Source: a virus. Taken from it: a stretch of 20,750 nt of DNA. Of the stretch, positions 17,322 to 20,750 are shown piece after piece. The stretch covers positions 1 through 20,750 of IMG/VR virus record IMGVR_UViG_3300046007_000837, one strand, 5' to 3'. Below the pieces are notes generated by a model, which saw nothing but the letters and a program-made list of their open reading frames with translations, had not been told where the DNA came from and searched no databases. Position numbers and translations under genes: made by a program. Position 1 is the stretch's first letter. Each line of letters starts with the position of its first letter.

Positions 17322-19316
17322 ATGCCAATCCAGATTAACAACGTCACTCGCCGAGCTGTGTACTCCCCAACCGGGGCTGGTGGGGCGGGACCATATTCTT
17401 TCACCTTCGAGATATTGGCCGCCGGAGACATCGCCGTCTACAAGGACGACGTACTCTTAACGCTGACCACGCACTACACCGTCTCAATTGCAGCTAACGG
17501 CACCGGGTCCGTAACCATCACAGCTGCTGGATTGGCCCTGGCCCCGGCTAGCCCAACTCAATATGCAATTGTTGGCAACCGTACGATTTCCCGTACGACA
17601 GACTTTGTGACCGGCGGCGACTTCTTCGCTAATACGTTAAACGACGAGCTCGACCAGCAGACCATCTTCAACCAGCAAAATCAAGAAGGTTTGCAACGTG
17701 CGCTGCAGGCTCCACAGACTGATCCAACGTCAATTAGCATGACCCTGCCGCGGGCATCGGTGCGAGCCCTTAAGGTGCTGTCATTTGACGCAAACGGCAA
17801 CCCATCGGCAACAGAGTTTATTGGCTCTAACCGTGGCAACTGGGCCGCCGGCACGCTCTACTATGTGCGCGATATTATTAAAGACACAACCAACGACAAC
17901 ATCTATCAATGTATTGAGCAGCACACCTCTAGTGGGTCGCTGCCAATTACTACAAACGCGGCTAGCTCCAAGTGGGCGCTGTTGGTAGACGCGGCCCAGG
18001 CGTTTTCTTATGCAACAGCAGCTGCGGCCAGTGCATCGGCTGCATCTACGTCGGCGTCTAACGCCTCTACCTCGGCAAGCAACTCCTCTACCTCGGCAAG
18101 TAACGCGTCTAGCTCTGCGTCTGCCGCATCGACCTCCGCAAGCAACGCATCTACCAGCGCATCTGCCGCTAGTACGTCAGCGACTAATGCGTCTAACAGC
18201 GCAACGGCAGCGGCCAGCTCTGCATCTACGGCCAGCACAGCCGCAACCAACGCATCTAATAGCGCATCGTCCGCTAGCACCTCTGCAACTAACGCCTCAA
18301 ATAGTGCAACCTCGGCGGCTAGTTCTGCAACCACAGCTACCAACGCTAGCAACGCCTCAATCAACTTGGCCACTAACTTTACGGCCACAGCCACCACGCT
18401 GTCTGCTGGCTCTAGTGCAACAGCGTCGTACAACTCTGGAACCTATACCCTAACCCTCGGCATTCCAACCGGAGCGACAGGCGCAACGGGCTCGACCGGA
18501 GCGACAGGCGCAACCGGCGCAACCGGGCCAGAGGGCCTTAGATGGTTAGGCGCTTATGCTGGTGGCACAGCTTATGTAGTCGATGATGCTGTTAGCTACA
18601 ACGGATCAAGCTATATCTGTAAGCTTGCCTCAACCGGAAACCTGCCAACGAACACAACTTATTGGGATGTGCTCGCAGAGAAGGGCGCATCTGGCTCTGG
18701 TGCCGGCGATGTGGTTGGCCCAGCATCTGCGGTCAATGACCGCCTGGTTGCGTTTGATGGCACGACCGGAAAGCTGATTAAAGACAGCACATTCACGGCA
18801 TCTAGCTTTGCTAAGTACGCCGATACAACAGCAAACTTCACAGGCACGTTGCAGAACTCTGGTAGCAACGTACTTACAGCAGCCAGCATTGGTTCAACTG
18901 TACAGGCCTATGATGCTGACCTTACCACGCTAGGTGCCGGTGGCTCATCTGCCAGGTCTTTCTTGGGGCTGGCAATTGGCTCAGATGTTCAGGGCTATGA
19001 TGCACAGCTTGCTGATATTGCTGGGTTGACCCCAACAGACAATGGCGTCATTGTTGGCAATGGAACTAACTTTGTTGTGGAGTCTGGGGCAACACTAAAG
19101 ACCTCCCTGGGCCTGACTATTGGCACAGATGTCCAGGCATACGATAGCAACCTAACATCGTTTGTTAATACGTTCACCCTGCCGACAACTGATGGCACGG
19201 CAGATCAGGTATTAAAGACTAATGGTTCAGGGACATTATCTTTTGTAACCCCTAGTGGTGGTGGTGGTATCACAACAGGTAAGGCCATCGCAATGGCCAT
19301 TGTTTTCGGTGGCTAA
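17322..19316 (+). CDS. Tail fibre protein with T7-type N-terminal anchor
   Basis: A 664-residue modular fibre. Residues 1-165 match the T7 gp17 anchor that binds the tail (RRAVYSPTGAGGAGPYSFTFEI style, then DDVLLTLTTHYTV, RTISRTTDF and ELDQQTIFNQQ). Next come a CBM-like module (about 170-222), a 17-heptad alanine repeat (222-340), a seven-triplet collagen-like run (384-404), a second CBM-like module (406-454), and a head part with three IG-x-x-VQ-x-YD-x-x-L repeats (523, 552, 600). The end is a Gly hinge and GKAIAMAIVFGG. It is probably trimeric and host-recognising. GGAAGGA lies 7 nt before the ATG. Confidence 0.93.
   Translation: MPIQINNVTRRAVYSPTGAGGAGPYSFTFEILAAGDIAVYKDDVLLTLTTHYTVSIAANGTGSVTITAAGLALAPASPTQYAIVGNRTISRTTDFVTGGDFFANTLNDELDQQTIFNQQNQEGLQRALQAPQTDPTSISMTLPRASVRALKVLSFDANGNPSATEFIGSNRGNWAAGTLYYVRDIIKDTTNDNIYQCIEQHTSSGSLPITTNAASSKWALLVDAAQAFSYATAAAASASAASTSASNASTSASNSSTSASNASSSASAASTSASNASTSASAASTSATNASNSATAAASSASTASTAATNASNSASSASTSATNASNSATSAASSATTATNASNASINLATNFTATATTLSAGSSATASYNSGTYTLTLGIPTGATGATGSTGATGATGATGPEGLRWLGAYAGGTAYVVDDAVSYNGSSYICKLASTGNLPTNTTYWDVLAEKGASGSGAGDVVGPASAVNDRLVAFDGTTGKLIKDSTFTASSFAKYADTTANFTGTLQNSGSNVLTAASIGSTVQAYDADLTTLGAGGSSARSFLGLAIGSDVQGYDAQLADIAGLTPTDNGVIVGNGTNFVVESGATLKTSLGLTIGTDVQAYDSNLTSFVNTFTLPTTDGTADQVLKTNGSGTLSFVTPSGGGGITTGKAIAMAIVFGG
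17985..18341 (+). repeat. 17-unit heptad repeat (alanine zipper) in the fibre
   Basis: Residues 222-340 divide into 17 consecutive heptads of type x-S-A-S-x-A-S. The third position is Ala in all 17 and the sixth is Ala in 16 (Ser255 is the exception). The DNA period is 21 nt, but serine codons are mixed (TCN and AGY), so the repeat is conserved in protein more than in DNA. Confidence 0.85.
18471..18533 (+). repeat. Collagen-like Gly-x-y run in the fibre
   Basis: Seven Gly-x-y triplets (six of the kind GAT/GST, then GPE) at residues 384-404 with near-repeated DNA (GGAGCGACAGGCGCAAC type units). Such short collagen-like runs often link shaft to head in trimeric phage fibres. Confidence 0.85.
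18885..19172 (+). repeat. Three IG-x-x-VQ-x-YD-x-x-L repeats in the fibre head
   Basis: The motifs IGSTVQAYDADL, IGSDVQGYDAQL and IGTDVQAYDSNL begin at about residues 523, 552 and 600. They are unevenly spaced (29 and 48 residues), with a DNGVIVGNGTNFVVESGA segment between the last two. This pattern is common in distal parts of phage tail fibres and probably forms a beta-structured trimer. Confidence 0.75.
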
Positions 19317-19335: not shown

Positions 19336-19710
19336 ATGGCCGCACCAAATATAGTAAACGTAGCAACAATCACTGGCAAGACTGCCGTGGTAGACCTAAC
19401 CTCAACCTCAGCGACATCCGTCGTCAGCAACGCAGCATCCAGCGGAAAGGTCTTTAAGATCAACTCGCTGATCGTGTCAAATGTTGACGGAACTAACAAC
19501 GCTGACATCACAATTAACCTGTACTCAGCAGCTGCGATAGGCGGCACGGCAACTCAGATCTGCTCGACAGTTACTGTTCCGGCTGACTCATCTTTGATTG
19601 TGATCGACAAGACCTCTGGCATCTACTTGGAAGAAGATAAGTCAATTGGAGCAATTGCTGGCGCAGCTAATGACCTCAAGGTTGTTTGTTCTTATGAGGA
19701 GATTTCCTAA
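19336..19710 (+). CDS. Small tail-associated protein of unknown function
   Basis: A 124-residue protein, predicted beta-rich from its composition (Thr, Ser, Val, Ile, Ala). It reads NIVNVATITGKTAVVDLTS, then KINSLIVSNVDGTNNADITI, and ends SIGAIAGAANDLKVVCSYEE. Proteins of this shape commonly follow tail fibre genes and may be accessory receptor-binding or adaptor proteins. No domain can be named. AAGGAG at 19322-19327 lies 8 nt before the ATG, and the stop makes a TAATG overlap with the next gene. Confidence 0.75.
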   Translation: MAAPNIVNVATITGKTAVVDLTSTSATSVVSNAASSGKVFKINSLIVSNVDGTNNADITINLYSAAAIGGTATQICSTVTVPADSSLIVIDKTSGIYLEEDKSIGAIAGAANDLKVVCSYEEIS

Positions 19711-20750
19711 TGTCTCGTTACCCAGGCCGTATACTTTCTTCTACTGCACCAACAGTAAGTGCACTCTCGGCCAAAGGTATTTGGACTTTAGACGAGGCTC
19801 TGCGCTATCAGAGAGCAGGTACTTGGCCCGTTCCTACTGGCGGTGGCGATCCGTACTTTGGATACAACACTCTGCTATTGCCGGGGCAGGGAACCAATCT
19901 ATCAAACAATAATACGTTTCAAGATTCTTCAGCAAATAACTTTACTGTTTTTAGAAACGGCAACACAACTCAGGGTACGTTTACCCCGTTTAGTGAGGCT
20001 CCGGGGTATTGGAGTAACTACTTTGATGGCTCTAGCAAAATAACAACTCCAAGTAGTGCGGACTTTGGGTTTGGTACTGGAGACTTCCATATTAGTTTCT
20101 GGGCGTACTTGGTTAGCGATGCCAATAAAACATTTTTTGGAAACGGAACAGACAACTTAAACTTGTATGTTGCGGCAACTACAAAATATATTGGTTTGTA
20201 TACGGGATCGACTAACGACAGCACTACCGTTGCGCCTTTGAACCAATGGGCTTTTTTCGTTGTAACTCGAACTGGATCAAGTCTCCAAGTTTACTTAAAT
20301 AATGTTTCAATACTTTCAATTTCAAATAGCACCAATTTTTCAACTACATCTTTTGCAATTGGAAGCAACACGTCTACGTCGTATATCAACTCATACATTT
20401 CTAATTTTAAAATTGTTAAAGGGGTTGCTTGGACTCCTGCTGCCAACCCAACATCGCCATCAACAGCCGATGCAAATACTAAATTACTAACCTGTCAGTC
20501 AAACAGATTTGTAGACAACTCAACAAACGCATTTGCATTTACTGTAACTGGCTCACCATCCGTCCAAACATTCCAACCCTTTGGCGCTCCAACATCTGCG
20601 TACTCTGCCGCTACAATTGGTGGTAGCGGGTACTTTGATGGTAGCGGGGATTATTTAACTGTTGCAGACAATGCAGCATTTGAGTTTGGAAGCGGAGATT
20701 TCACAATTGAATTGTGGGTTAATACAACATCATCAAGTCAATATGATTCT
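19710..20750 (+). CDS. LamG/concanavalin-like tail protein (3' truncated by window)
   Basis: An uninterrupted frame of 347 codons runs from the ATG at 19710 off the window. Residues 1-50 form a short N-terminal region (GIWTLDEALRYQRAGTWPVP) of a type I associate with tail attachment in environmental phages. Residues about 105-240 look like one LamG-type lectin domain (YFDGSSKITTPSSADFGFG; FHISFWAYLV; NQWAFFVVTRTGSSLQVYLN). A linker with LLTCQSNRFVDNSTNAF follows, and a second domain begins (GYFDGSGDYLTVADNAAFEF; FTIELWVNT). It probably binds host glycans. Base composition is clearly more AT-rich than the upstream genes. GAGGAG at 19696-19701 supports the start. Confidence 0.88.
   Translation, partial: MSRYPGRILSSTAPTVSALSAKGIWTLDEALRYQRAGTWPVPTGGGDPYFGYNTLLLPGQGTNLSNNNTFQDSSANNFTVFRNGNTTQGTFTPFSEAPGYWSNYFDGSSKITTPSSADFGFGTGDFHISFWAYLVSDANKTFFGNGTDNLNLYVAATTKYIGLYTGSTNDSTTVAPLNQWAFFVVTRTGSSLQVYLNNVSILSISNSTNFSTTSFAIGSNTSTSYINSYISNFKIVKGVAWTPAANPTSPSTADANTKLLTCQSNRFVDNSTNAFAFTVTGSPSVQTFQPFGAPTSAYSAATIGGSGYFDGSGDYLTVADNAAFEFGSGDFTIELWVNTTSSSQYDS

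Follow-up and report, generated by a model that had tools for sequence, protein, structure and literature searches.

The virus record IMGVR_UViG_3300046007_000837 of IMG/VR was analysed over positions 1 to 20,750, and this whole stretch of 20,750 nucleotides is referred to below as the window. Towards its end lies a tail fibre gene whose product carries a long run of Ala-rich heptads, which raises the question of the structure and role of such a uniform sequence. It is well supported that residues 222-340 form a coiled-coil shaft of the fibre, and in relatives the length of this rod changes almost only by whole units. More precisely, we put at about 0.88 the probability that the rod of this short-tailed phage fibre is a trimeric, parallel alpha-helical coil with Ala layers, which holds the distal part out and changes its length by whole heptads. 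The two features concerned are the following:

17322..19316, + strand: tail fibre gene, 664 amino acids, assigned from the open reading frame (ORF), PHROG matches and annotated relatives
17985..18341, + strand: 17 Ala heptads, residues 222-340, well supported as a coiled-coil shaft by counts, shuffles, AlphaFold2 and relatives

Alanine heptads of the shaft

Along residues 222-340, Ala occupies heptad position 3 in 17 of 17 repeats and position 6 in 16 of 17, the exception being Ser, exactly as an initial annotation made from the sequence alone had claimed. The remaining positions are filled by Ser, Thr, Asn and some Ala, the window heptad being A-S-N-A-S-T-S and variants of it. The best two-phase Ala count reaches 33 of 34, a value never approached when these residues were shuffled 20,000 times (mean 15.9, maximum 23), and the strongest Ala period in the shaft is 3.5 residues. 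The first heptad, VDAAQAF, represents the junction with the preceding domain and leaves about 16 heptads of pure shaft; residues 229-345 contain no charged residue and consist of S, A, T and N with one Y. With regard to similarity searches, Pfam at E 0.1 gave no phage-fibre-repeat family for the shaft, and its comparison with PDB sequences returned a single weak match, T7 gp17.

At the DNA level, the 21-base units of the shaft agree on average at no more than about 11 of their 21 bases, and the same amino acid at the same heptad position is encoded by an identical codon at a frequency of 0.35, close to the expectation from codon usage; the heptad pattern is therefore kept at the protein level. 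A longer repeat is present within the same region:

18136..18329, + strand: 105-base (five-heptad) internal duplication, 1.8 copies, 78% alike, detected by Tandem Repeats Finder

This five-heptad duplication, together with a low-complexity composition lacking charge and large hydrophobic residues, would suit a flexible, disordered Ser/Thr/Asn/Ala linker whose length changes through slippage of the 21-base repeat. However, nothing would oblige a linker to reserve two heptad positions for Ala (33 of 34 places), to exchange in register with Glu-rich heptads, or to hold the distance between non-repeat landmarks constant modulo 7 over 14 lengths (the last two described below), and the divergence of the units at the DNA level makes recent slippage insufficient, so that we regard this explanation as very unlikely. 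A 141-residue antisense ORF also runs over the Ala heptads (18008-18433, minus strand); it was set aside as a gene, since the base composition of GCN/TCN-rich codons probably gives rise to it.

Shaft length and core layers in related fibres

Shaft lengths were compared as distances between non-repeat landmarks, namely a KW.L motif before the coil and either the collagen run or a YLG motif after it. Among fibres of the N-terminal class of the window, those of the collagen type all give distances equal to 2 modulo 7 (8/8, with 135-163 residues to the collagen run), and 33 of the 40 YLG-type distances equal 0 modulo 7. The seven exceptions all contain a WA.KT insert, and the insert-free YLG-type fibres follow the rule in 33 of 33 cases, with 77-217 residues to the YLG landmark. 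Whole-heptad spacing is thus found in all 41 insert-free fibres of this class, over 14 lengths, including the window fibre (L060) and those of the phages MEP301 and HTVC024P.

The insert consists of modules of the WATKTSGxVxGxxYSAKY type, located inside the coil of L066, L073, L078, L083, L088, L127 and L128, and shifts the length by a number of residues that is not a multiple of seven. The insert-free YLG-type shafts fall into two length groups, with 77-98 and 175-217 residues between landmarks and none between. The shaft of L142 (from base 973) spans 217 residues between landmarks and is rich in Asn (ASNSANNSSNF heptads), with the Ala phase kept.

Fibres of a second type, whose short N-terminus reads MAIYRGPGG (L002, L004, L006-L010, L015, L024, L057 and L150), have the same kind of coil followed by a collagen run and, in most members, the same carbohydrate-binding module (CBM) and tip as the window class. 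Since two N-terminal types share these parts, a distal cassette is common to two adaptor types. The modulo-7 rule is kept in 9 of 10 distinct sequences of this second type.

Heptads rich in Glu and Gln, both good helix formers, share the register of the Ala heptads in relatives, a point in favour of the coil. When phase 3 is defined as the Ala of 'NA' in TSASNAS, this phase is Ala in 97-99% of the heptads and phase 0 is Ala in 82-94%. The Glu-rich heptads (TAETNAE) have Glu or Gln at phase 0 and carry their second Ala at phase 6. Of 673 heptads, only 1 has large or charged residues at both phase 6 and phase 0, compared with about 8.5 expected if the two were independent (p = 0.0015, a value that is descriptive only, the heptads being repeated). 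This near-exclusion, which also counts in favour of the coil, suggests one core layer that is nearly always Ala and a second whose residue appears to come from one or the other of two adjacent positions. We can tentatively propose, as a possibility that remains rather doubtful, that a fixed Ala layer combined with a two-position second layer would let recombination mix charged and uncharged heptads freely without interrupting the rod, whose length would stay in whole units.

Structure of the rod

AlphaFold2, run on the whole protein as one chain with 20 sequences, predicts one unbroken helix over residues 224-351, with a mean pLDDT per ten residues of about 64-76 through residue 340 and lower values beyond. 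Together with the whole-heptad lengths in relatives, this bears out the helical coiled-coil fibre shaft proposed in the initial annotation, and the length rule represents the stronger support of the two. Because phage fibres commonly have beta shafts, a beta structure in the form of, for example, a triple beta-helix or a repeat solenoid was also considered; but the 3/4 spacing and the 3.5-residue period are unfit for alternating beta strands, and the prediction is a helix, which renders this possibility extremely improbable.

In the coiled-coil shaft, residues 222-350 of three chains would most likely come together in a parallel alpha-helical coiled coil built on small layers of Ala, presumably wound into a left-handed supercoil. 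If helical, the rod would measure about 18-19 nm, in agreement with the earlier estimate of about 18 nm, and would set the distal part (a possible sugar-binding module and the tip) at this distance from the tail-binding arm, where it may contribute to the reach towards the receptor. Gain or loss of whole heptads in the phage lineage would alter rod length with the helix register kept. A different oligomer or topology of the helices, for instance with two chains only, or as a tight antiparallel Ala coil, would benefit from the very close helix packing that Ala layers permit. On the other hand, a collagen-like run follows the coil, and collagen needs three parallel chains; moreover, T7 gp17 fibres are annotated as trimers, and the equivalent coil of EPclA was measured as a trimer (PMC3368898). 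We therefore consider arrangements other than the parallel trimer unlikely.

Several points weigh against the trimeric coil. The predicted helix was obtained for a single chain at middling confidence (64-76), and AlphaFold2 may favour a helix for any Ala-rich stretch. Ser, Thr and Asn, which fill most of the other positions, are weak helix formers. The relatives are mutually non-independent, and the L022 group of the second fibre type is off by a non-multiple of seven, so that the lengths in multiples of seven anticipated by the initial annotation hold for the 41 insert-free fibres of the window class but are broken by this one group in the second class. Finally, whole-unit length steps are to be expected of any 21-base tandem repeat, whatever its fold; the steps thus support the shaft but fall short of proving a helix.

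Comparison with characterised fibres

The closest system with measurements is the PCoil domain of EPclA, a side tail fibre of an E. coli O157 prophage, in which an Ala/Ser-rich coil of the Ala-X-X-Ala/Ser-X-X-Ser type separates the N-terminal domain from collagen (PMC3368898). This coil is trimeric by size-exclusion chromatography with multi-angle laser light scattering (SEC/MALLS) and alpha-helical by circular dichroism (CD), and the lengths of EPclA homologues differ by multiples of seven (PMC3368898). The window fibre resembles it, by description, in its Ala heptads (33/34 Ala), in its length steps of seven and in the collagen-like run after the coil. The N- and C-terminal domains differ, however, and the heptad periodicity of EPclA is described as loose, whereas that of the window is nearly perfect and without charge. 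Convergence can occur in such sequences and could account for the likeness.

Two further suggestions of the initial annotation do not stand in the light of these comparisons. An uncharged Ala coil had been considered unusual, but 26 of the 41 family shafts are at or below 2% charged residues, and the EPclA coil is likewise rich in Ala and Ser and almost free of Leu and Ile (PMC3368898). It had also been suggested that the coil may be stable only when clamped by the collagen-like run. This idea was discarded because the melting temperature of the EPclA coil is about the same whether or not collagen is present (PMC3368898), and because many relatives, among them L012, L061 and L072, carry the coil without a collagen run.

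In the side tail fibre of phage lambda (orf-401), the best stretch of 84 residues has Ala at 0.88 of its core positions, and the SETNA and TKASEA heptads of this fibre resemble those of relatives of the window; this stretch is 17% charged compared with 0% in the window, and the ends of the protein are different. T7 gp17 has an N-terminal arm whose fold may be like that of the window fibre, the structural match being near background and covering the arm only, followed by an Ala-containing heptad region (residues 175-263) to which the weak sequence match (E 0.03-0.09) belongs. Charged residues make up 26% of the gp17 coil, a high share, and Ala fills 0.62 of its core positions; no collagen run was noted. 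The MEP301 tail fibre has an Ala zipper of the same heptads as the window, with a YLG-type distal part and 182 residues between landmarks without a collagen run, against 163 residues to the collagen run in the window.

A literature search on alanine zippers gave nothing on phage fibres. The window shaft is the charge-free extreme of a kind of phage rod that is already known, and the finding on the window gene alone is ordinary. What is added is a large collection of natural Ala zippers from the environment, rods of near-perfect heptads spanning 77 to 217 residues between landmarks, on which one could test how a coil is held together by a charge-free Ala core and whether host range depends on rod length.

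Flanking domains and neighbouring genes

The domain order of the fibre comprises a probably T7 gp17-like arm, a chitin-binding-like module, the coil, a short collagen-like run, a second such module and the tip:

17322..17705, + strand: N-terminal tail-binding arm, probably T7 gp17-like, about residues 1-128 (PF03906 in relatives, fold match, profile search)
17832..17987, + strand: carbohydrate-binding-like module of CBM 5/12 type, about residues 171-222 (PF02839, fold similarity)
18375..18470, + strand: linker or capping segment from coil to collagen run, about residues 352-383 (conserved in relatives, alignment A1)
18471..18536, + strand: short collagen-like Gly-X-Y run, about residues 384-405 (sequence; Pfam Collagen E 0.026)
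18552..18635, + strand: second CBM 5/12 module, Pfam stretch residues 411-438 (PF02839 E 3.3e-7)
18675..19313, + strand: distal part with VQxYDAxL-type repeats and conserved tip, about residues 452-664 (alignment A1)

With regard to the arm, PF03906 (Phage_T7_tail) is matched by 10 of 38 family members (best 9.4e-5), the window member itself failing to reach E 1. Its model, of fair confidence, folds like the tail-binding arms of T7 gp17 and other short-tailed phages, with scores near background; against gp17 (7ey9_a) the Z score is 8.6 with an rmsd of 3.1 over 75 residues, near or slightly above the background level of the tool. Independently, a profile search (A4) against PDB sequences matches the arm to two tail fibres or spikes of solved phages (8ck1/28lx, E 2e-20; 9efk, E 2e-14); gp17 is absent among its matches, although other phage tail fibres and spikes are present.

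The module preceding the coil is recognised by PF02839 in 36 of 38 members (best 1.7e-5), the window value of E 0.0079 being below the curated cut-off, and in fold it resembles chitin-binding modules such as 4nz1 (Z 6.2 for 47 residues). The second module is above the whole-protein cut-off, and both are possible sugar binders as judged from these similarities. AlphaFold2 confidence is low for the segment 352-383, and the structure of everything after the coil, including the distal part, is not resolved by the prediction. The Gly-X-Y run, about a 30-residue linker downstream of the coil, is below the curated cut-off of Pfam Collagen.

The ORF 17322-19316 matches tail and tail fibre families of PHROG (phrog_5073, 5.4e-19; phrog_1640, 1.8e-11), by which its product is assigned as a tail fibre. 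Among annotated phages, Methylophilales phage MEP301 has the nearest relative, a tail fibre 57.6% identical to that of the window across residues 1-223, followed by Pelagibacter phage tail fibres, which are N-terminal relatives; the portal proteins of the window phage and MEP301 are 71% identical. The fibre is a host-binding one, and the window virus infects water bacteria. Directly upstream, ORF 14359-17283 matches the internal virion protein family phrog_6651 (E 6e-31), and the same gene order is found in MEP301 and HTVC024P. Downstream, an ORF at 19710-20750, cut by the window end, carries a Laminin_G_3 (concanavalin-like) domain (E 3.5e-11) and is perhaps a further adhesin.
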